Positions 13,342 to 25,600 of a stretch of 64,000 bases of DNA are shown here, piece by piece; the first letter of the stretch is position 1; every line of letters begins with the position of its first letter. A model generated the notes under the pieces. The model had not been told where the DNA came from. It was given only the letters and a program-made list of their open reading frames with translations, and made no database searches. Position numbers and translations under genes: made by a program. The stretch is from contig NZ_CP136920.1 of NCBI RefSeq assembly GCF_033100135.1, positions 4,273,001 to 4,337,000 on the forward strand, read 5' to 3'. Source of the DNA: Rubellicoccus peritrichatus (GTDB taxonomy: Bacteria; Verrucomicrobiota; Verrucomicrobiia; Opitutales; Cerasicoccaceae).

Positions 13342-15506
13342 ATGAATACCCCAATCTCAACGAACCCCAAAAAAATCAACAGATTTGACGAAGAGATTAA
13401 ATCCGAAGTAGACAAAGGCCTCGGATTGATTCCGTTTGTCGGAAGTGGCATCTCCGCGAATTCCGGAATACTCATGAGCAAGGAATTCGATAACTATCTA
13501 GCCTATTGCATCTGGAAGGTCCTCGGATCCCCCAAAATTCTAAAGGAAAAATCAGATTCGGAACATAATACTGCTACTACTGGTAACGCCGGAATCGAGC
13601 AAAAAGAAACGACTCCTTCAGCACCAGAGCGATACCCTGACGAACACTTCGAGAGCGGCACCAATAAACCTTGGAACATTAAGAAAATGGGTTGGCCTCC
13701 GTTCCCTCAAGAAGAAGATTTGGAGCATACGCGCATTTATATAAGGGCTTGCTTAAACGAGAATCTGCGAATTGTGGCAGGCACCGTTTCGCCCAGAAAA
13801 TCTAATGACCCAGGGGTCGAATCACAGACCTATCCCCTCAAACCTGAAGACGAGCACACTAAAGTAGTGGACATCCTCTCCTCGTACAGACCGATGATAG
13901 AAAAATCCGATCAAGTTGAAGGGATTGGAATTCACGAGCGAAAGATCATGAAAGACCCTGTCACATTCGATCTTCGACGCGCAATTGTTCCCAACATCAT
14001 TCCTCAGGAAACAAATTTTGGCGCGGCCGAGGAAAAGCTTTATCGCGATAAAATTGCTAGCGGAATAGAAAACGTCCCATGGGGCTTGCAGAACTCAACC
14101 ACTTCGCAGCGCTATATTCGTCAATCGGCTCTGCATAGCTTAAGTCATTGGACTACCGCGTTGGAATTCATGTCGCAAACACGAGTGACTCGATATGGAA
14201 GACTTTATCTAGCCGATCCTGATTCATCGATTATCGATGATTTTAATCAGCACATCATTCGCGACAAGCACCCCAACTTCATTCATAATATGCTTGCTCG
14301 CTTGACGCGCTCGCTTCGCTCACGCCTCATCCTAACAACGAACTTTGATAATCTTCTAGAGAAAGCTTTTCGCGCTCAAGGTGAACCTCTGCGAACGATT
14401 GCAGTTAGCCATAAGGGTGGCATGCCACCTTATTCCTCTGTCCGCAGTCAGGATTGCTTGGTCAAGCTACACGGCGACATCATGGAAACACGCGCTGATA
14501 GTTCTATTCATAAACCAGCCAGCACATCAGATAAGAAACATTTTTATCAGTATTTGTTTGGGCCAAACCTGCCTACTGCTAAACAACTCGAGAGTTTTAC
14601 CCGCAATCACCTTCTTGTTCTCGGCTACTCCGCAAGAGACAACCGTTGTGTAGACATGATTAAACATGCTCTAGATTCATCGCAGGAATTACGGGTATTT
14701 TGGGTCTGTCACACAGAATCAGATAAAGCTCATGTCGAAAGCATTTTTGACGAATACATCGACAAAAAGACCCCTGACAGTAAACTGCAAATCCAGATAT
14801 TGGTTACGAACCGAACTGACTTGCTTCTCTGGGAGCTATACCAATTGCTCAATCTATCTCTTCCTGGAGGGGGATACAGCTTTCGCTTTTCACACAACGT
14901 TCCGCCAGTGCACTACACCGACTTCAATGGTGATTCAATGATGCGTGAGAACGACTCACTAATGAGTAACCTAAAGGATCTCTCAACGAAGATTTCAGAT
15001 AAAATTAAACAAAACTCTTTTCATAAGTTCGACAGAGACACCGGCACTTCAGAAACATTTAAGTATCACTATTATCAAGTTGCCGGCAGAAAAAACACCA
15101 TCTGGCTCGAGTTGGAAGACTACACTGACCCAACAATTCTCGTGTGGGATATTCTCATGACAATGTCTATCCGCAAAGGCGCCTTTAGAGGAGAAGCAAT
15201 CAACGTACTCCCGGAGTCATATTTAACACTACATTCTCGCTATAATGGATGGTTCAAACATAAGGCAAACGAGAAAGATTTCTTGAATGACCTAATGACA
15301 AAATCCAGAATTACTATGGAGAAATTTGGCGCTACCCCCAAAGACTGGTGTGTATTTCTCTACGGCAGAAATGGTCTTGGCGGTTGCTCAAATCTGGAGA
15401 CAACGGAAATCAGTGAGGTAATCGACCGCTGGGATCCATCTAGATATGAGCGCGAAAAAAATCTAGCAAATTACACAAAAGCAAGACCCATAGTGTCATC
15501 TCGAAA

Positions 15507-16094
<588 letters not shown>

Positions 16095-16148: not shown

Positions 16149-17048
16149 TCAGTCAGCAAAAGCTCTTCGCGCTAGAAAATCTCGGATCTTGTCAATGATC
16201 TGCACGGCATCTTCCTCTAGAGCAAAATGTCCGGTATCGAACATATAGAAATCAATCTCTTTGAGATCCTTTCGGTATGCTTCGGCACCTGCAGGAACGA
16301 ATATCGGGTCATTGCTCCCCCAAGCAACCAAAGTAGGTGGCTGGCGCTCACGAAGATAAGCCTGCCACTCCGGGTATGATTTAACATTATTCTGGTAGTC
16401 GTAAAAAAGGTCTAACTGTACTTTTTCTTGGCCTGGACGATCAATCCGGGCGAAATCCAACACCCAGTTGTCAGGATTGATCCCCTCCGGTTTTCTTGTG
16501 CCTTCAACATACATCCACTTGATGCCTTCCAGGCTCATCAATTGTGTGGCAATAGCAGCTTCCTTTTCAGCAGTGCGCTCATTCCAGAAGTCTCTTACCG
16601 GCGCTGAAGTCTCTGGGTGGAAGCCCTCTTCATACGCGTTGCCGTTCATCACAATCAGACCTTTGACCCGATCCGGATACTTCGTTGCCAAACGATAGCC
16701 AACCGGTGCTCCGTAGTCCTGCATCCCTAACACAAATTCAGTGATACCTTTCTGATCGAGGAATTTGTCAATCGTTCTCGCCAGGTTATCGAATGTATAT
16801 TCGTAATCCTTAGGATCTGGAAAGCCGCTATTGCCAAAACCTGGATAGTCCGGGGCAATTAGAAACCAGTCCGCGCCCAGTGCTACGAGAACATCCCGAT
16901 ACATGTGCGATGAAGCTGGATAGCCATGCAGTAATACCACTGCCCGTTTCTGGGGAATTCCAGACTCTCGATAGAAGATGTTGATACCATCGACTACTTC
17001 GGTCCCATATCGCACTTCTACTAAAGTTTTCGCTGATTCAGTTGTCAT
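16149..17048 (-). CDS. Alpha/beta-fold hydrolase, haloalkane dehalogenase / epoxide hydrolase type
   Basis: The product has the alpha/beta-hydrolase signatures LLHGYPASSHMYRDVL (oxyanion-hole region) and LIAPDYPGFGNSGFPD. The nucleophile elbow MQDYGAPVG carries Asp instead of Ser, as in haloalkane dehalogenases and epoxide hydrolases. An acid region VAWGSNDPIFVP and a DTGHFALEE catalytic His follow near the C-terminus. I chose the ATG at 17048 (MTTESAKTLVEVRYG); the frame is open to a TTG at 17135, but the extra 29 residues do not resemble the family. No signal peptide, so probably cytoplasmic. It is divergent from the NemR-like tetR gene at 17593, so joint control is likely. Substrate unknown. 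Confidence 0.85.
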   Translation of the reverse strand: MTTESAKTLVEVRYGTEVVDGINIFYRESGIPQKRAVVLLHGYPASSHMYRDVLVALGADWFLIAPDYPGFGNSGFPDPKDYEYTFDNLARTIDKFLDQKGITEFVLGMQDYGAPVGYRLATKYPDRVKGLIVMNGNAYEEGFHPETSAPVRDFWNERTAEKEAAIATQLMSLEGIKWMYVEGTRKPEGINPDNWVLDFARIDRPGQEKVQLDLFYDYQNNVKSYPEWQAYLRERQPPTLVAWGSNDPIFVPAGAEAYRKDLKEIDFYMFDTGHFALEEDAVQIIDKIRDFLARRAFAD

Positions 17049-17165
17049 ATTTCTGCTATTGTTAAAACTACTCTCAAGTTTTGACCATTCATTCCAAACT
17101 AGGGCGAAGTTAGGTTTGTTGAAAACCGCTGTCAATGATCCAAAATCACTAAAGTCCTCGGCCTA

Positions 17166-17592
17166 GTGAAATACTTGACTATTTTGGCTAGCCTTCTCCG
17201 TCGAAATAATGCGCCAAAAATTAAAATATCTAATGTGTGCCATTAGAAAAACAGAACTTCGCTCATGCACGGGAAAGATTTGGCACGGAATCGGGCGCAA
17301 ACTCCCAGAAGGATCTGCATGCTAGTTGTTGATCTATCCCTCTGTCTACAAGTAATTTAAGGCAAGTATGTATGTAAGAAATATGAAACTGGTTCAAAAT
17401 AACGTTAATTTCGCTCATTCGGTCTAGCTAGTCTTTCCTATCGAGCGTGTCGGAGTAGCATCTTCTAGGGTATTTGCGACAAAATCGTTACTCTTTCTGT
17501 TGAGCTTTACTCAAGATTATTAGAGGATCACCGATTACCAAAATTGGAAAAATGAATTTCGGACATCATCAAGGAGTTAGACCCAGTTAGTT
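17166..17592. promoter_or_regulatory. Divergent regulatory region between hydrolase and tetR
   Basis: This 427-bp spacer lies between two diverging genes. It contains isolated half-sites matching the NemR-box arms, GGTCTA near 17420 and TAGACC near 17577 just before the tetR start, but no full 16-mer as good as those at 18224, 22798 and 23497. No coding sequence is evident. Confidence 0.4.
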
Positions 17593-18171
17593 ATGCCCTG
17601 GGAAAAATCATTCAATGTCGAGAAGGCAGTCGACAATGCAATGCTCTTGTTTTGGAAGAAGGGTTACAACGATTCCTCAATGGCCGAATTATTGAAAGTA
17701 ACCGGATTGACGAAAGGAAGCTTCTATAATGCCTTTGGCAGTAAGCGGGATCTGTTTATCAAGACTTTCACGAAGTATGACCAGGAGTCTCGTGTAGCAC
17801 TTCACCAGCTAACTGCGATGGACTCTCCCAAGGAGGCAATACGGGCTTTTTTTGATTGGCTTGTAGAGGCGACTGCGTCCGATCAGGAGAAGAAGGGATG
17901 CTTCACCGTGAATATGCTGATATGCATAAAATCTTTTGATGAGGAAATCCAGGGGCTCGTGAGAGGTTCCCAACAAAGTGTCGAGACGTTCTTCAAGCAA
18001 ATGATTGAGCTTGGCCAAATCCGTGGAGAAATCTCGAAGGAATTGCATGCCGAAAAGACTGCGAAGCTATTAGTTGGAGCGATGGTCAGTGTTCGCGTCC
18101 TTGGGCGAGGCACTTTTGACTCCGACGGACTTCGAATGCTCGCCGACCAGGCAGTGAGTATCATCGAATAA
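17593..18171 (+). CDS. TetR/AcrR-family repressor, NemR-like (copy 1)
   Basis: The 192-residue protein has an N-terminal TetR helix-turn-helix (residues about 10-50: FWKKGYNDSSMAELLKVTG, then LTKGSFYNAFGSKRDLF) and an all-helical ligand-binding C-terminal half including the GCFTVNMLICIKSFDEEI stretch, which could carry a redox- or electrophile-sensitive Cys. It is closely paralogous to the protein at 22867, sharing the start MPWEKSFNVE. It precedes the RND efflux pair, with a NemR-box-like operator at 18224 between them, and diverges from an alpha/beta hydrolase. By analogy with NemR it probably represses the pump and itself until a reactive compound is sensed; the inducer is unknown. Confidence 0.9.
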   Translation: MPWEKSFNVEKAVDNAMLLFWKKGYNDSSMAELLKVTGLTKGSFYNAFGSKRDLFIKTFTKYDQESRVALHQLTAMDSPKEAIRAFFDWLVEATASDQEKKGCFTVNMLICIKSFDEEIQGLVRGSQQSVETFFKQMIELGQIRGEISKELHAEKTAKLLVGAMVSVRVLGRGTFDSDGLRMLADQAVSIIE

Positions 18172-18223: not shown

Positions 18224-18239
18224 TAGACCGATCAGTACA
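18224..18239. promoter_or_regulatory. NemR-box-like TetR operator upstream of RND pump genes
   Basis: TAGACC-GATC-AGTACA fits TAGACC-N4-GGTCTA with a perfect left arm and a weaker right arm. It lies 54 bp before the adaptor start, just after the tetR copy 1 gene. Two related 16-mers occur at 22798 and 23497. Confidence 0.55.
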
Positions 18240-18292
18240 GATTTACCGAGAAAATCCAAAAACTCCTGCGTTTAAAATCAACAGATTCTCCC

Positions 18293-19444
18293 ATGAATAG
18301 GCCACTAGGTATTTCGGCAATAGCCAGTACGATACTACTGCTTAATGCGTGCAGCAAAGAGGAACAGCAAGCTGCCCCACAAGCCCTACCAGTAGTGGTG
18401 GCAACTCCCATTGAAGAAAGGATTATTGAATATTCCGAATTCACCGGTCGTCTTGAGGCAGTCGAAATGGTGGAGGTACGTCCTCGGGTAAATGGCTACA
18501 TTCAATCGATCCATTTTGAGGAGGGCGAAAAAGTCAATCAAGGTGACCTGCTATATGTTATCGATCCAGCTCCGTTTGAAGCTCAAGTCAACCGGAGGCA
18601 AGCTCAGCTGGAACAGGAGCAAGCAGCACTATCCTTAGCGAAGGCTAACCTGGATCGCGCCGAACGTCTCGTCGATGCAGACGCCATCAGCAAGGAGGAA
18701 GCGGATATACGACGTAGTGAAGCGCTGCAGGCAGCAGCCGATGTCAAGGCTGCCGAGGCGGAACTTCAAATAGCGAAACTAGACTTGGGCTACACCCGGG
18801 TAACTGCTCCGATTAACGGCATAGCAGATCGGCATCAGGTAACTATCGGCAATCTTGTTAGTGGAGAACAAGCCAACGCGACACTACTCACTACCATCGT
18901 CCCACACGACCCCATCTATGCTTACTACGAGGTTGATGAACGATCATTTCTTCGAGGTGTTCGGCAGTTCCTCGAAGGGGAAACTCCAGGGCGTGGTTCT
19001 GATGTGTCCATTCCCGCTTATCTTGGACTAGACGATGAAACCGGATTCCCTCACGAAGGTGAAATTGATTTCGCAAGCAACCAAATAGATCCTGATACGG
19101 CTACGATGACGGTGCGGGCAATCTTTGAAAATGATGACGAGTTTCTTACTCCAGGACTATTTGCAAGGATCAGGGTGCCTGCATCCAAGGAAAAAGATCA
19201 ATTACTCATTCCTGAGGCAGCGATCGGCACAGACCAGACTCACCTGTTCGTCTGGGTGGTACGCGATGACAATACCGTCGAACAGAGACGCATTGAGATA
19301 GGACCGAAGCATCACAATCTCCGAGTGGTCCGTAATGGACTGGAGCCAGATGACCGCATTGCAACTGCGGGTATTCAGTTTCTTCAGCCAGGCATGCTAG
19401 TCGATCCGCAACCGGGAGCGATCGAACTAGCCGCCTCCAACTGA
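18293..19444 (+). CDS. RND efflux periplasmic adaptor lipoprotein (MFP, AcrA-like)
   Basis: This 383-residue membrane fusion protein begins with a lipoprotein signal (ILLLNAC, Cys at residue 20). The order is the usual one: barrel-sandwich hybrid half (VRPRVNGYIQSIHFEEGEKV), an alpha-hairpin rich in Ala/Glu/Gln (about residues 100-160), the second lipoyl half (LGYTRVTAPINGIADRHQV), then beta-barrel and membrane-proximal domains. It would link the inner membrane transporter encoded 24 bp downstream to an outer membrane channel. No TolC-type gene follows, so the channel is encoded elsewhere. An operator-like site upstream suggests control by the NemR-like regulator. Confidence 0.95.
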   Translation: MNRPLGISAIASTILLLNACSKEEQQAAPQALPVVVATPIEERIIEYSEFTGRLEAVEMVEVRPRVNGYIQSIHFEEGEKVNQGDLLYVIDPAPFEAQVNRRQAQLEQEQAALSLAKANLDRAERLVDADAISKEEADIRRSEALQAAADVKAAEAELQIAKLDLGYTRVTAPINGIADRHQVTIGNLVSGEQANATLLTTIVPHDPIYAYYEVDERSFLRGVRQFLEGETPGRGSDVSIPAYLGLDDETGFPHEGEIDFASNQIDPDTATMTVRAIFENDDEFLTPGLFARIRVPASKEKDQLLIPEAAIGTDQTHLFVWVVRDDNTVEQRRIEIGPKHHNLRVVRNGLEPDDRIATAGIQFLQPGMLVDPQPGAIELAASN

Positions 19445-19468
19445 ACAGAAGCTTGAGTTGCCGCTGCT

Positions 19469-22400
19469 ATGAATATTTCAGCATTTTTCATCAATCGTCC
19501 ACGATTCGCGATCGTTGTTTCAATTGTCATCACGATCTTAGGTATACTGGCCTACCCAAGACTTCCAGTAGCGCAGTTTCCTGAAGTCGCTCCACCAACT
19601 GTGGTAGTGAGAGCTAGCTACCCCGGAGCAACACCCGAAACGATCGCGCAAACCGTCGCATCGCCCCTAGAGCAGGAAATAAATGGTGTCGAAGGAATGC
19701 TCTACATGTCTTCACAGGCAACGACCGATGGAGCCTTAGCGATAACGATTACATTCAAACTAGGCACCGACCTGGATAATGCACAGGTTCTAGTACAAAA
19801 TCGCGTTGCGATCGCTGAACCAAGGCTACCGGAAGAGGTGCAACGAATCGGTGTTACCGTCGCCAAAAGTTCGCCCGACCTGCTATTGGCGGTGCAGATG
19901 ATTTCGCCAGAAGAAACCTATGATAATCTTTACATCAGCAACTACGCGTTGACCCGAGTCCTGGAAGAACTGCGACGCATTGAAGGGGTTGGCGATATAC
20001 TTCTTCTGGGAGCGCGTGAATACTCAATGCGCGTGTGGCTGAACCCTGAGAAGCTATCATCCCTATCTTTGATTCCCGATGATGTCGTTGCTGCTCTGCG
20101 CGAACAAAACGTTCAGGTAGCTGCCGGCATTTTCGGCCAGAACCCCACTTCCAGGGGGAATGCATTTCAGTACAGCGTGAGCGCCTTAGGGCGACTGAAC
20201 GATGTGTCTCAGTTCGAAGATATCGTGGTCAAGACAGGCAACAATGGGCAAGTCGTTCGACTAAAGGATGTAGCGCGTGTAGAGCTTGGCGCTCAGGACT
20301 ATGGAGTCATAAGTTACGCAACCGAGCTTCCGGCGCTGACCATGCCCATCTTTCAGCGTCCAGGCTCCAACGCATTAGAAACGTCCGCCACCATTCGAGC
20401 CGTTATGGATGAACTCGCCAAGGATTTTCCAGATGACCTGGAGTATCGCATTAACTACAACCCAACGCAGTTCATTCAGCAGTCAATCGATGCGGTTCGC
20501 AATACGCTTTTCCAAGCAATTCTGTGCGTCATTTTAGTTATCATTCTATTCCTGCAGTCGTGGCGCGCGGCGATCATCCCTCTATTAGCGATACCAATCT
20601 CGCTGATTGGAACGTTCGCGGTAATGGCAATCCTTGGTTTTTCCATCAATAACCTGACGCTCTTCGGACTGGTTCTCGCCATCGGAATTGTGGTCGATGA
20701 TGCGATTGTCGTAGTTGAGAACATTCAACGGAATATTGATGAAGGAAAAGCACCCAAAGAAGCGGCGTTTCTTGCGATGAGAGAAGTTACTGGAGCTATT
20801 ATCGCAACCTCTCTTGTGATGATCGCGATCTTTATTCCCACCAGTTTTATACCTGGGATATCTGGACAGTTCTATTCTCAGTTTGCACTCACGATTGCCG
20901 GTTCCGTCATCATATCCACTTTTGTGTCGCTAAGCCTAAGCCCGGCACTCGGTGCAATCCTGCTTCGATCGTCAAATGCCCAAGCAGACTGGTTTTCAAA
21001 GATTTACATGTTTCTATTTGGATGGTTTTTCCGCGGCTTCAATTGGGTATTCGATCGAGTTATCCGAGGATACACAGGCATCGTTCGCAGAGTTGTCCGC
21101 CTTGGATTCGCCGCAATGATTGTATACTTGGGCCTTTTGGCCGCAACCTGGTTTGGTTTCTTTAAAACTCCAGTCGGCTTTATCCCAGAACAAGATCAAG
21201 GATATGCGATTGTCGTCGCACAACTCCCCGATGGAGCCTCACTCGAAAGAACTGATGAGCTAGTGCGCGAAATCGTCGATATCATCAAGGACATCAACGG
21301 TATTGAGGGTGCGGTGGCGTTCGCTGGTTTCAATGGTGCAACTTTCGCCAATAGTCCCAATTCCGCTGCGATATTCACACCATATGATTCGTTCGACAAA
21401 CGAATTAAAGCTGGACGAGACTCCAACACCATCATGGCAGAGATACGGCAGAAGCTATCTGGTATCCAAGAAGCAATGGTGTTTGTTATTCCTCCCCCTG
21501 CTGTTCGCGGCATCGGAAATGGCGGCGGTTTCAAGATGCAACTGCTTGATAAAGTTGGGTATGGTCCGCAGGTCCTGGAACAGACTGCCTGGCAAATTGC
21601 GATAGCGGCAAACCAAGAGCCATCAGTTTCACAGGCTTTCACAATTTATCGGTCATCCGTACCTCAGTTTCATGCTGAAGTAAATCGCACTAAAGCCAAG
21701 ATGCTCGATGTTCCCTTGGATCGTGTATTCAGCACAATGCAGATCTATTTAGGTTCACTGTTTGTCAACGATCTGAACCTGCTTGGTCGGACTTATCGGG
21801 TAACTGCTCAAGCGGATATACCTTATCGCGATGATCCCGAGGATTTGTATCGCCTCAAAACTCGAAGCAATAGTGGGGACATCGTTCCTCTTGCTTCGCT
21901 CGTTGAGTTAGAGCGTAGTGTGGGACCAGACCGTTACGTTCGCTACAACCTATATGGTTCTGCAGCAGTTCAGGGGGCGACAACATCTGGATTTTCTACA
22001 GGTGAATCGATAGCTACCATGGAACGACTAGCCGAAGAGATCCTACCGGCAGGCCTGGACTACGTATGGACGGAACTTGCCTACCAACAGCAGAACGCAG
22101 GTGGTGGCAGTTGGGTTTTTCCACTTGCCGTATTGTTTGTGTTTTTGGTCCTTGTCGCTCAATACGAGAACTGGTCCCTACCCTTAGCGATTATGTTGAT
22201 CGTCCCCCTTAGCCTAACGGGAGCAATTGGGTTCATTTTAGTGCGGGGATTCGACAACAATATTTTAACCCAGATCGGTTTCGTCGTCCTGATTGGATTA
22301 GCGGCCAAAAACGCCATTCTCATTGTCGAATTTGCGAAACAAAAAGAAGATGAGGGCATGGATCGCTTTGATGCTGCCATCGAAGCCTCCAAGCTGAGGC

Positions 22401-22621
22401 TTCGCCCCATCCTAATGACATCATTCTCTTTTGTCCTTGGTGTCGTTCCATTAGTCATTGCGAGTGGAGCAGGTGCTGAGATGCGCCAAGCACTCGGAAC
22501 TGCAGTTTTTGGAGGAATGCTTGGGGTCACTATTTTCGGAATATTTCTAACCCCTATCTTCTATGTCATAATCCGAAAGTTTTCGAGTGACCTGAAACAG
22601 AACAAAGGAACGCTCACCTGA
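19469..22621 (+). CDS. RND multidrug efflux transporter, inner membrane subunit (HAE1, AcrB-like)
   Basis: A full-length 1,050-residue hydrophobe/amphiphile efflux RND protein. The N-terminus is typical (MNISAFFINRPRFAIVVSIV, then YPRLPVAQFPEVAPP). Proton-relay residues are present: the Asp pair in GIVVDDAIVVVEN and the Lys in GLAAKNAILIVEFAKQ. Twelve transmembrane segments and two large periplasmic loops follow the AcrB layout. It forms an operon with the adaptor. Substrates cannot be told from sequence, but the flanking NemR-like regulators and the nearby peroxiredoxin/SDR operon suggest toxic electrophiles or aromatic compounds. Confidence 0.96.
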   Translation: MNISAFFINRPRFAIVVSIVITILGILAYPRLPVAQFPEVAPPTVVVRASYPGATPETIAQTVASPLEQEINGVEGMLYMSSQATTDGALAITITFKLGTDLDNAQVLVQNRVAIAEPRLPEEVQRIGVTVAKSSPDLLLAVQMISPEETYDNLYISNYALTRVLEELRRIEGVGDILLLGAREYSMRVWLNPEKLSSLSLIPDDVVAALREQNVQVAAGIFGQNPTSRGNAFQYSVSALGRLNDVSQFEDIVVKTGNNGQVVRLKDVARVELGAQDYGVISYATELPALTMPIFQRPGSNALETSATIRAVMDELAKDFPDDLEYRINYNPTQFIQQSIDAVRNTLFQAILCVILVIILFLQSWRAAIIPLLAIPISLIGTFAVMAILGFSINNLTLFGLVLAIGIVVDDAIVVVENIQRNIDEGKAPKEAAFLAMREVTGAIIATSLVMIAIFIPTSFIPGISGQFYSQFALTIAGSVIISTFVSLSLSPALGAILLRSSNAQADWFSKIYMFLFGWFFRGFNWVFDRVIRGYTGIVRRVVRLGFAAMIVYLGLLAATWFGFFKTPVGFIPEQDQGYAIVVAQLPDGASLERTDELVREIVDIIKDINGIEGAVAFAGFNGATFANSPNSAAIFTPYDSFDKRIKAGRDSNTIMAEIRQKLSGIQEAMVFVIPPPAVRGIGNGGGFKMQLLDKVGYGPQVLEQTAWQIAIAANQEPSVSQAFTIYRSSVPQFHAEVNRTKAKMLDVPLDRVFSTMQIYLGSLFVNDLNLLGRTYRVTAQADIPYRDDPEDLYRLKTRSNSGDIVPLASLVELERSVGPDRYVRYNLYGSAAVQGATTSGFSTGESIATMERLAEEILPAGLDYVWTELAYQQQNAGGGSWVFPLAVLFVFLVLVAQYENWSLPLAIMLIVPLSLTGAIGFILVRGFDNNILTQIGFVVLIGLAAKNAILIVEFAKQKEDEGMDRFDAAIEASKLRLRPILMTSFSFVLGVVPLVIASGAGAEMRQALGTAVFGGMLGVTIFGIFLTPIFYVIIRKFSSDLKQNKGTLT

Positions 22622-22797
22622 CACAAAATCCCCTAAGCGTACCCGCTTCAGCCATTAAGCGATGATGGGAACCCTCCACAAAGACAAGAGGTTAAAGCAG
22701 CGTTGTGAATCACATCTCACGGCAGAAATGCCCAGGTTAGTTCTCTAAATCTCACCCCTACATTTCTTTCTTGATAAAGGAAAAAAATGACATAGAT

Positions 22798-22813
22798 TAT
22801 ACCGATCGGTTTA
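22798..22813. promoter_or_regulatory. NemR-box-like TetR operator upstream of tetR copy 2
   Basis: TATACC-GATC-GGTTTA contains the perfect 10-bp palindrome ACCGATCGGT (22801-22810). It lies 54 bp before the chosen ATG of the second tetR gene, the right place for autoregulation. A TTGATA hexamer about 25 bp upstream could be the -35 element. Confidence 0.6.
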
Positions 22814-22866
22814 AACAAAGAATAACACCGCTAGGAAAATCTAAGAACATCAAGGAAGGAAAAACC

Positions 22867-23451
22867 ATGCCCTGGGAAAAATCATTTAACGTCGAACAAG
22901 CAATCGACAGTGCAAAGCTCCAATTTTGGAAAAACGGTTACAGCGATTCGCCTATGTCCGATCTTCTAAAGGTCACCGGATTGACTAAAGGCAGCTTCTA
23001 CAACGCTTTTGGAAGCAAAAGGAATCTCTTCATCAGAACTTTCAAGAAATACGATCGGGAATCTCAAGCATTTCTGCATCAATTGATTGCGATGGACTCC
23101 CCTAAGGAGGCCATAAGAACCTTCTTTGATGGGCTCGTCGAGACGACTATATACGATCAGGACAAGAAGGGATGCTTTACTGTAAACATGCTGATTTGCA
23201 TAAAATCCTACGACGAAGAGATTCAAAATCTCGTTAGAGGCTCAGTTTTAAGCGTTGAGACATTCTTGAAGCAAATGGTTGAACTTGGTCAGACTCGTGG
23301 AGAGATACCAGCAGATTTAGTCCCCGAGATGGCCGCAAAGTTTCTTGTAGGAGCAATGGTAAGTATTCGTGTCCTGGGACGGGGAACATACGATCCCAAG
23401 GAAGTTCGGGAACTTGCTGATCAGGCATTCAGTATCGTTCAAAAAGATTAA
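22867..23451 (+). CDS. TetR/AcrR-family repressor, NemR-like (copy 2)
   Basis: A 194-residue paralogue of the regulator at 17593, starting MPWEKSFNVEQAID and carrying the same helix-turn-helix (LTKGSFYNAFGSKRNLF) and the conserved GCFTVNMLICIKSYDEEI segment. I chose the ATG at 22867 because it aligns with the paralogue and follows AAGGAAGGA; the frame is open from 22771, but that extension spans the operator. Downstream sit an operator copy at 23497 and the peroxiredoxin / AhpD-like / SDR operon, so it probably controls itself and that operon, perhaps with cross-talk to copy 1. Confidence 0.9.
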   Translation: MPWEKSFNVEQAIDSAKLQFWKNGYSDSPMSDLLKVTGLTKGSFYNAFGSKRNLFIRTFKKYDRESQAFLHQLIAMDSPKEAIRTFFDGLVETTIYDQDKKGCFTVNMLICIKSYDEEIQNLVRGSVLSVETFLKQMVELGQTRGEIPADLVPEMAAKFLVGAMVSIRVLGRGTYDPKEVRELADQAFSIVQKD

Positions 23452-23496
23452 TTTTTTTGAAAAATTACTTGATTATTATTTTTTTTGAACCATGTT

Positions 23497-23512
23497 TAGA
23501 ACGATTGGTTTA
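23497..23512. promoter_or_regulatory. NemR-box-like TetR operator upstream of peroxiredoxin operon
   Basis: TAGAAC-GATT-GGTTTA matches TAGACC-N4-GGTCTA at most positions in both arms. It lies 37 bp before the chosen peroxiredoxin start and shares the GGTTTAAACAA extension with the site at 22798. The AAATTACTTGA sequence preceding it recurs before the 18224 site. Confidence 0.55.
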
Positions 23513-23548: not shown

Positions 23549-24211
23549 ATGAAATTAAAAAATGAACTCAACGCCTTCAGAGCCGAATTTTCGAATAAGG
23601 TTGATGAAGAAACAGTATCTATAATCGATCGAGCTTCAGCGGAGCTGGAAGTAGATTTCCAATCACGGAACCCATCGGGTGTAGGAGACAAAGCCCCTGA
23701 TTTCACTCTTCCATCAGCAAACGGCGCATCCGTTAGCCTATCGGAAAAGTTACAAGAAGGACCTGTAATTATTACCTTCTACCGGGGAGACTGGTGCCCT
23801 TATTGCAATTTGGAGCTACGTGCCTATCAGCGAATCCTTCCTGAAATTAAAGAGGCAGGTGGTTCGTTGATTGCGATATCACCACAAACACCCGATTCTT
23901 CGCTCACAACTGCCGAAAAGAATAACCTGGAGTTTGATGTCCTTTCTGACGTCGGTTCAAAGGTCGCACAAGGCTTTGGTATTTCCTTTAAATTGCCGGA
24001 GTATCTACAAGAACTTTATAATAAACTCGGCGGCAGCCTTCCGGAGTATAACGGAACCAATGACTGGACCTTGCCAGTTCCTGCCACCTTCGTCGTTGAC
24101 CGTGAGTCTCGCATCGTTTTGGCCCATGTTGATACGGAATACCAAAACCGTTTGGAACCAAACGAAGCCTTAGTCGCAATTAACGCTATTAATAGCGTAA
24201 AATCAGTTTAG
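23549..24211 (+). CDS. Peroxiredoxin-like thiol peroxidase (AhpC/TSA family)
   Basis: A 220-residue AhpC/TSA-fold protein. The motif YRGDWCPYCNLELRAYQ gives a CxxC pair at the peroxidatic site, and P.TFVVD.ESRIVLAHVD is typical of the C-terminal strands. The preceding helical N-terminus (about 65 residues) is usual for this peroxiredoxin-like subgroup. Reduction of peroxides via a thiol cycle is the expected activity. The start ATG at 23549 (MKLKNELNAFRAEF) is preferred to a frame-open codon at 23492 that lies in front of the operator at 23497. First gene of a three-gene operon with an AhpD-like protein and an SDR. Confidence 0.88.
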   Translation: MKLKNELNAFRAEFSNKVDEETVSIIDRASAELEVDFQSRNPSGVGDKAPDFTLPSANGASVSLSEKLQEGPVIITFYRGDWCPYCNLELRAYQRILPEIKEAGGSLIAISPQTPDSSLTTAEKNNLEFDVLSDVGSKVAQGFGISFKLPEYLQELYNKLGGSLPEYNGTNDWTLPVPATFVVDRESRIVLAHVDTEYQNRLEPNEALVAINAINSVKSV

Positions 24212-24267: not shown

Positions 24268-24831
24268 ATGATAGACTATAGAATACACACCGTTGAAACA
24301 GCACCTGAAGCTTCCAAGCCAATTTTGGAAACGGTCAAAAAGAACTTCGGTTTCGTACCGAACCTTATGGCAACCATGTCTGAGTCGCCCGTGCTGGTGG
24401 AAAGCTATCTGACGATGATGCGCTTGTTTGAAAAAGCCAAACTTAGCCCAACGGAACGCGAGATTATATTGATGACCAATAATCGTTTGAATGGCTGCAC
24501 CTATTGCATGGCTGCTCATTCTACGGTGGCTAAAATGGCCGGAGTCGATGCTGGCGTGATTGAAGCCTTACGCAGTGGCACGTCCATTGATGACCCCAAG
24601 CTCGAAGCCTTGCGCACATTCGCGGTTATCATTCATGAAACCCACGGAAGACCCACTGAACAACAAGTAGACGAGTTTCTTGCAGCGGGCTACACCAAGG
24701 AAACGATTCTGGAAGTGATTGTTGGGACAAGCCTGAAAGTGCTTTCCAACTATACCACTCCGATCACCGTGCCCGAACTCGACAAAGCTTTTGAGCCTAT
24801 GGCATGGAGCAAGGAAGGCGCTTCCGCTTAA
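24268..24831 (+). CDS. Carboxymuconolactone decarboxylase-family, AhpD-like peroxidase-related protein
   Basis: The 187-residue protein has the AhpD/CMD core: LSPTEREIILMTNNRLNGCT followed by YCMAAHS, giving the E...CxxC...H redox site near residues 60-80, and a second helical half. AhpD-type proteins act as thiol reductants or weak alkyl hydroperoxidases, which fits the peroxiredoxin encoded 56 bp upstream. It is cytoplasmic, with no signal peptide. The leader before its ATG resembles the leader before the SDR gene. Confidence 0.9.
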   Translation: MIDYRIHTVETAPEASKPILETVKKNFGFVPNLMATMSESPVLVESYLTMMRLFEKAKLSPTEREIILMTNNRLNGCTYCMAAHSTVAKMAGVDAGVIEALRSGTSIDDPKLEALRTFAVIIHETHGRPTEQQVDEFLAAGYTKETILEVIVGTSLKVLSNYTTPITVPELDKAFEPMAWSKEGASA

Positions 24832-24877: not shown

Positions 24878-25600
24878 ATGAAAATTGCAAACAGCACAAT
24901 TCTTGTTACAGGCGCTAATCGCGGCATCGGCCTAGCATTGGTCGAGAAAGCACTGGAAAAAGGAGCCGCAAAGGTCTATGCCACCTATCGCTCTGAAAGT
25001 AATCGTTCAACGCTTGAAGCACTTGGTGAACGGGTTGTTCCCATTCATCTTGATCTCAGCAACCAAGCGACGATTGCAGATCTTTCTCAGTCAGTGCCCT
25101 CGCTGGATATTCTCATCAATAACGCGGGGATTTTTACAGCCGCCGATGTGCTGGAGAATACTGGAGAACAACTACGTAACGACGTAGAGACCAACTTCTT
25201 CGGAACACTCTCGGTCACCAAAGCTGTGCTGCCTGCGCTCAAGAAGGCTGGTTCCGGCGCGATAGCGAATATTTCGAGTATCGCTGGTCTTGCCGCAATG
25301 CCAAGCTTTGGCGGGTATTCCGCTTCAAAAGCTGCGCTGCACTCATTGACGCAGTCTATTCGCGGGAAGTTGAAAGCTAACGGTATCTCTGTGCATGGAG
25401 CTTACCCCGGTCCGGTGGCAACGCGCATGACTGAAGGTATGCAAATGGATACAACGCCCGCTCCGGTCGTTGCTGATAATATTCTCACTAACATCGAAAA
25501 CGGTGTTGAGGAAATTTTCCCAGATGGGATGTCACAGCAAGTTGGGCCGCTCTTCTTCACCTCGCCTAAACAGTTGGAACAGAACTTTGCTGCATTTTAA
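24878..25600 (+). CDS. Short-chain dehydrogenase/reductase (SDR)
   Basis: The 240-residue classical SDR has the TGANRGIG cofactor loop at residues 12-19, DILINNAGIF, a catalytic Ser in ANISSIAG, and the YSASKAA Tyr/Lys pair, then an AYPGPVATRM loop. It would reduce or oxidise a carbonyl/alcohol with NAD(P)H; the YATYRSES segment after beta-2 leans toward NADPH. It is last in the peroxiredoxin operon, consistent with detoxifying reactive carbonyls. A 10-bp inverted repeat follows its stop codon directly. Confidence 0.92.
   Translation: MKIANSTILVTGANRGIGLALVEKALEKGAAKVYATYRSESNRSTLEALGERVVPIHLDLSNQATIADLSQSVPSLDILINNAGIFTAADVLENTGEQLRNDVETNFFGTLSVTKAVLPALKKAGSGAIANISSIAGLAAMPSFGGYSASKAALHSLTQSIRGKLKANGISVHGAYPGPVATRMTEGMQMDTTPAPVVADNILTNIENGVEEIFPDGMSQQVGPLFFTSPKQLEQNFAAF

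Follow-up and report, generated by a model that had tools for sequence, protein, structure and literature searches.

Two sister TetR-family regulators and three putative operators of one clade at a predicted electrophile and oxidative-stress locus of Rubellicoccus peritrichatus

We analysed a stretch of 64,000 nucleotides of the Rubellicoccus peritrichatus genome (the window), in which two TetR-family regulator genes lie among genes for an RND pump, a peroxiredoxin-like protein, an AhpD-like protein and a short-chain dehydrogenase/reductase (SDR). The features are given below in their order along the window; box scores and ranks come from a matrix trained on external loci, described further on.

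16149..17048, minus strand: alpha/beta hydrolase (Pfam Abhydrolase_1, 8e-34), divergent from tetR1
17081..17096, no strand assigned: weak candidate fourth operator TTGACCATTCATTCCA (14.0 bits, rank 4), 32 bp before the hydrolase start
17593..18171, plus strand: tetR1, TetR-family regulator of 192 aa (TetR_N 5.9e-10, TetR_C_13 2e-07)
18224..18239, no strand assigned: putative operator 1, TAGACCGATCAGTACA, before the pump operon (19.9 bits, rank 2 in the window)
18293..19444, plus strand: RND pump periplasmic adaptor (RND_mfp, 273 bits; best model MexE, 385 bits, below its cut-off of 714)
19469..22621, plus strand: RND multidrug efflux permease (NF000282, 1327.8 bits, cut-off 1250)
22771..22800, plus strand: promoter-like TTGATA-N18-GATTAT (9/12 consensus positions), its end overlapping operator 2
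22798..22813, no strand assigned: putative operator 2, TATACCGATCGGTTTA, before tetR2 (21.6 bits, rank 1; perfect TNNACC-N4-GGTNNA core)
22867..23451, plus strand: tetR2, TetR-family regulator of 194 aa (TetR_N 8.2e-08, TetR_C_13 1.1e-07)
23497..23512, no strand assigned: putative operator 3, TAGAACGATTGGTTTA, before the peroxiredoxin operon (18.4 bits, rank 3)
23549..24211, plus strand: peroxiredoxin-like AhpC/TSA protein with CPYC (AhpC-TSA 5.5e-31, computed on the longer ORF)
24268..24831, plus strand: AhpD-like CMD-family protein with CTYC (CMD 7.6e-11; a solved relative named AhpD, 6e-36)
24878..25600, plus strand: SDR (adh_short 6.7e-45)

The hydrolase is of the haloalkane dehalogenase / epoxide hydrolase class, with HGYP and GMQDYGAP motifs, and its best-scoring solved relatives are haloalkane dehalogenases (best 60 of 103 matches). 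Solved relatives of the peroxiredoxin are thiol peroxidases and peroxiredoxins; its start at 23549 is a chosen ATG, not a proven one, and the longer ORF from 23492 would overlap operator 3. No outer-membrane channel gene lies alongside the pump adaptor and permease (18293-22621), the next gene being tetR2. Before the hydrolase, the ORF at 13342-15597 (751 aa) presumably encodes a SIR2-domain protein, judging from its motifs.

The first-pass annotation had placed 16-mers with the TAGACC-N4-GGTCTA layout of NemR at 18224, 22798 and 23497, before the pump, tetR2 and the peroxiredoxin operon. Their coordinates are correct, and 53, 53 and 36 bp separate their ends from the start codons of the pump adaptor (ATG at 18293), tetR2 (ATG at 22867) and the peroxiredoxin (ATG at 23549), respectively. 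The NemR consensus itself fails to single them out, as 15 sites with up to three mismatches are found in the 64-kb window against a shuffle mean of 14.76, which is chance. A consensus built from the boxes gave 5 sites in the window with 2.35 expected (a count of 5 was attained in 13 of 100 shuffles). Over the whole genome, at up to three mismatches, it gave 94+91 sites against 138+150 for the reversed control, so there is no excess. The layout by itself carries no significance; the ranking by the external matrix does.

For this matrix we used 67 loci from GTDB genomes, retrieved with an alignment of TetR1 and TetR2. The loci are not independent (L104 and L109 are near-identical, as are L077 and L083), and many come from metagenome bins, whose organism labels may be wrong. 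Box counts cover all 67 loci, with the distantly related L117-L120 and the truncated L116 among them. Starting from the NemR consensus, box-like sites were seen adjoining tetR in most loci, after which the core TNNACC-N4-GGTNNA was fixed. In the 300 bp upstream and the 200 bp downstream of tetR this core has 59 sites in 33.4 kb (41 of the 67 loci), compared with 14 in the remaining 714 kb, a density 90-fold that found elsewhere in the same loci; seven control cores (reversed, re-spaced or permuted) gave 0 or 1 site, and control cores overall 0-2. With up to one mismatch allowed, 60/67 loci have a core site, compared with 5-25/67 for seven control cores. No such core site was found beside tetR in L058, L081, L092, L112, L117, L119 and L120; L081 carries strong boxes farther from tetR, before peroxiredoxin and GST genes.

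The symmetrised matrix was refined on the external loci (158 sites), and the window was excluded from all training. Scanning the 64 kb with it returned the boxes at 22798, 18224 and 23497 as ranks 1, 2 and 3 (21.6, 19.9 and 18.4 bits), when a Markov null of 6 Mb held one site of at least 18.4 bits and none of at least 19.9 bits. In E. coli MG1655 its top site is TAGACCGACTGGTCTA (19.7 bits), which lies 14 bp upstream of the annotated nemR start; the next best site in 6 kb reaches 9.3 bits. Because the external matrix ranks the three boxes first to third and also finds the nemR site, they are very probably operators of this TetR clade, with half-sites of the NemR type. That they are chance palindromes, or the sites of an unrelated regulator, is very improbable: the chance-level count of the NemR consensus in the window and the lack of a genome-wide excess would fit such an origin, but the clade-wide footprint and the external ranking contradict it, and a degenerate pattern derived from these sites matches, in the whole 5.8 Mb genome, the three boxes and one other place only, inside a coding frame.

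In the relatives (L054-L120) boxes near tetR are often paired: in 48 cases two sites lie no more than 80 bp from each other, at a spacing of 29-30 bp in 15 of these and of 33-35 bp in 18, which suggests two dimers per promoter. The three boxes of the window have no paired partner site. Steric block would be the natural reading of how repression works, given that box 2 overlaps the end of the promoter-like element at 22771; over the full scan, promoter-like matches are no more frequent than chance predicts (9 against 12.0 expected).

Upstream of tetR1 (17049-17592), none of the 20 best matrix sites of the window lies between the 17081 site and tetR1, so that TetR1 apparently lacks autoregulation by such a box. 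A half-site look-alike at 17578 was rejected as a tetR1 box, as it scores -9.1 bits. Sites as strong as the one at 17081 (14.0 bits) are expected 0.34 times per 64 kb, and we treat it as a candidate only. The two adjacent tetR copies thus differ, one being without an operator and one having it, as in a constitutive and an autoregulated copy side by side.

Both regulators score above the cut-offs of PF00440 and PF16925 and are members of the TetR family. They are 74% identical to each other. Their helix-turn-helix residues 33-52 agree at 20/20 positions, and outside the HTH they differ at 36/130 residues, the ligand domain being 72% identical (94/130). In a tree of 67 rows TetR1 and TetR2 are sisters (support 100/92); nearest to the pair is a protein from a Calditrichia MAG (100/99), and several phyla are represented around them. 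A search of 88 genomes (the own genome plus 87 from the same family and order) gave some match in 28, with identities outside the own genome of at most 32% among the matches listed. The L054 genome has a single copy at 71% identity, its next match being at 27%. The multi-phylum tree, the low identities in kin of the same order and the single copy in L054 together speak for horizontal spread of the clade and for a duplication in this lineage. Near-identical tetR genes occur in L104 and L109, in bins of one metagenome labelled Pirellulales and Chromatiales, which reflects either a recent transfer or a binning error. Relatives of the TetR proteins are found in 676 plasmid records, all below 60% identity, and in 12 phage records; none were found with PADLOC.

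The AlphaFold model of TetR2 (pLDDT 90.9, pTM 0.84) matches many TetR structures, with 3qbm first, NemR (4yze) fourth and CifR (6nsn) fifth. A sequence profile against solved structures puts CifR first (3.4e-28), with NemR at 2.9e-13; with TetR2 as the sole query, first place goes to an uncharacterised protein of Rhodococcus (2i10), which is nearer than CifR.

The NemR layout proposed in the first-pass annotation is borne out by the E. coli site, so "NemR-box-like" stands for the half-sites; it does not stand for kinship in the narrow sense, as CifR is nearer by profile and TetR1 and TetR2 share 21-23% identity with NemR over 123-130 aa, other structures also scoring higher. The motif of the clade is moreover broader than the NemR consensus. 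Like the two window proteins, NemR is a TetR repressor, and it has its TAGACC-N4-GGTCTA box before its own gene; the box at 22798, with 2 mismatches to that consensus, likewise lies before the gene of TetR2, whereas TetR1 has no such box. A cysteine in a GC motif (NemR Cys106) is conserved, and the modelled fold matches 4yze with a TM of 0.84-0.86. Unlike in NemR, Lys175 is not conserved. The targets also differ: E. coli NemR controls nemA (old yellow enzyme) and gloA, the putative targets in the window are the pump, peroxiredoxin, CMD and SDR genes, and no gene of the nemA or gloA type is among the eight window genes scanned. From their sequences, TetR1 and TetR2 do not appear to be orthologues of NemR.

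CifR of Pseudomonas, the epoxide-responsive repressor of cif, is the best profile match among solved structures, its Cys107 aligns with Cys103 of the window proteins, and an alpha/beta hydrolase lies in both neighbourhoods (PMC8244358). Identity in the structure alignment is nevertheless 19%. CifR controls a Cif-type epoxide hydrolase; the window hydrolase, divergent from tetR1 and with a weak candidate box, may or may not be of that type, its best solved matches being haloalkane dehalogenases (among the best 60 of 103). Another TetR repressor, the NemR-related thiosulfinate sensor AltR of Pantoea, is described with an essential conserved Cys100 and with boxes at its own promoter and elsewhere within a redox-defence cluster, but the AltR box is CAATCTAC-N6-GTAGATTG instead of TNNACC-N4-GGTNNA (PMC13178969). 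The openly licensed part of the literature gave no recognised description of this TetR clade or its box. In the main text of a paper on a TetR regulator and oxidative stress in Acidovorax (PMC4204640), the terms alkylhydroperoxidase, peroxidase, carboxymuconolactone and glutathione S-transferase do not occur, and a literature search on NieR/NieAB gave nothing usable. By analogy, TetR1 and TetR2 would operate like NemR and CifR, with a different kit of genes.

To describe the neighbouring genes of the relatives we grouped ORFs within up to 6 kb on each side by single-linkage BLAST; such clusters may merge paralogues or unlinked genes, and the counts are over the 67 external loci, leaving aside the window and the paralogue from its own genome. 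Of the clusters to which the window's own genes belong, CMD is present in 31/67 loci, SDR in 17/67, hydrolase in 8/67, peroxiredoxin of the window's type in 4/67 and the RND permease with its adaptor in 3/67; further clusters are a second AhpC/TSA group (17/67), HAD (10/67) and GST (9/67). AhpD-like CMD, peroxiredoxin, SDR, GST, hydrolase and RND pump genes recur beside a TetR gene and a box across phyla. In L068 a hydrolase 69% identical to that of the window sits within a tetR-box-peroxiredoxin-hydrolase cluster, and in L054 the SDR behind tetR is 80% identical to the one at 24878..25600. In L059 the permease comes first, followed by the adaptor, a further ORF, CMD, the box and tetR, the genes before the box being on the opposite strand; pump and CMD share one box there and are split over two arms in the window.

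There are 113 strong boxes (at least 16 bits), of which 63 lie before tetR and 53 before CMD, where a single box may count twice; 4 fall solely inside coding frames, and 7 have no start nearby. Eight strong boxes are far from tetR and precede CMD (2), SDR (2), peroxiredoxin (1), GST (1), an unclustered ORF (1) or nothing (1). Since six of these eight precede a CMD, peroxiredoxin, GST or SDR gene, they are the best sign that the boxes associate with detoxification genes and not with tetR alone. The regulon of three operators and two regulators proposed in the first-pass annotation agrees with the clade-wide operators, the sister tetR genes and the recurring families; that proposal overlooked the lack of a box at tetR1, the weak fourth site and the broader motif.

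Elsewhere in the genome, the site at 2915054, TTGACCAATTGGTTCA (19.2 bits), was rejected as a target, as it lies inside an open frame of 778 codons, which by its motifs looks like a helicase. A third TetR (L003/L121), 31% identical, lies near an AhpC/TSA gene (L121:4396-6321). With up to three mismatches L121 has 12 sites where 5.8 are expected (2 of 200 shuffles reach 12), and both sites with 2 mismatches are far from the third tetR. The near-palindrome TTGAATAATTGTTCAA, with 3 mismatches, ends 24 bp before the third tetR start; we do not count it as the same operator, and this regulator and its near-palindrome may form a related system whose operator has shifted. Among the matches listed are also two palindromes 50 bp apart, TTAACCATATGGTTAA and TTAACCAAATGGTTAA (G000:C1:650196-650261), perhaps the operators of another TetR.

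Residues 33-52 are identical in TetR1 and TetR2, and one matrix fits all three boxes. Either protein would bind the boxes, with cross-binding between the two sets, and one regulon common to the two sister repressors is likely. The same operators could instead be divided, TetR1 serving the pump box only and TetR2 its own and the peroxiredoxin boxes only, with separate inducers. Each tetR gene directly precedes "its" box and operon, box 1 is the most divergent (AGTACA, the others having GGTTTA) and the ligand domains are 72% identical, all of which would suit such a division of work; we consider it rather unlikely in view of the shared recognition region and matrix, and it conflicts with a common regulon only on cross-binding. 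Within a common regulon, TetR1 and TetR2 may still answer different inducers, given their 36 differences outside the HTH.

Cys103 is present in both window proteins and in 64/66 sequences, the remaining two having Asn and a gap; this count leaves out the four distant rows L117-L120, which also carry Cys. It aligns with NemR Cys106 and with CifR Cys107 (6nsn; C107S mutant 6nsm). The residue of TetR1 aligned with NemR Lys175 is Gly171, beside the invariant Arg172, in a region where the alignment is weak. NemR Cys106 is described as responding to reactive chlorine, with a Cys106-Lys175 sulfenamide (PMC5297802), CifR as releasing DNA with certain epoxides (PMC8244358) and AltR as requiring Cys100 for thiosulfinates (PMC13178969); RclX, an AhpD-family protein, guards P. 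aeruginosa against HOCl (PMC7950407). By analogy with NemR, CifR, AltR and RclX, the inducer is likely to be an electrophile or oxidant, and it would likely be sensed through Cys103. An electrophile/oxidative-stress regulon is a good inference from the AhpD-like CxxC protein, the peroxiredoxin, the SDR and the aligned cysteine.

As the cysteine is found in all four distant rows and appears common in the wider family, Cys103 may on the other hand be structural. TetR regulators usually work by reversible ligand binding in a pocket, and the same operators and repressors could answer a reversibly bound small molecule such as a drug, a phenol or a lipid-like compound. The presence of an RND pump among the putative targets, the lack of conservation of the NemR lysine and the cysteine of the distant rows are consistent with this inducer, which we consider unlikely because box-adjacent enzymes in the relatives are mostly of the peroxide and electrophile type (AhpD-like, AhpC/TSA, GST, SDR) and, of the characterised relatives with a solved structure, the nearest, CifR and NemR, are described as responding to an electrophile or oxidant (PMC8244358, PMC5297802).

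Our preferred explanation, with a probability of roughly two in three, is that of two sister repressors with one shared operator and a detoxification regulon switched by an electrophile or oxidant at Cys103. TetR1 and TetR2 would share the palindromic operator TNNACC-N4-GGTNNA before the pump operon, tetR2 and the peroxiredoxin-CMD-SDR operon, and in resting cells TetR dimers would occupy the boxes and block transcription. A quinone, epoxide, reactive chlorine, hydroperoxide or similar compound would modify Cys103 and release the dimer. The pump would then export the compound, the peroxiredoxin and the AhpD-like protein would reduce peroxides and the SDR carbonyls, and the divergent hydrolase would perhaps open epoxides or dehalogenate. 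TetR2 would repress its own gene, a feedback that TetR1 seems to be without, and the pair would stem from the duplication of one regulator of this module.

A wider reading, which we hold tentatively and at a little short of even odds, is that of a regulon as yet without a name that has spread horizontally among Pseudomonadota, Planctomycetota, Calditrichota, SAR324 and other lineages. It would combine one TetR clade (N-terminus MPWEKSF) and one operator code with a changing kit (AhpD-like protein, peroxiredoxin, SDR, GST, hydrolase and RND pump), and its cysteine switch would do without the lysine of NemR; here, the duplication would have divided the kit between an export arm and an enzyme arm. 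A motif first guessed by eye becomes a clade-wide operator code, from which regulons can be predicted in dozens of bacteria, most of them uncultured. It also suggests that sensing as in NemR and CifR reaches well past the examples known so far, with another set of enzymes. Should the cysteine switch work in the absence of the NemR lysine, the evolution of such switches could be tested simply, by comparison. The duplicated regulator is a small natural experiment in the splitting of a regulon.
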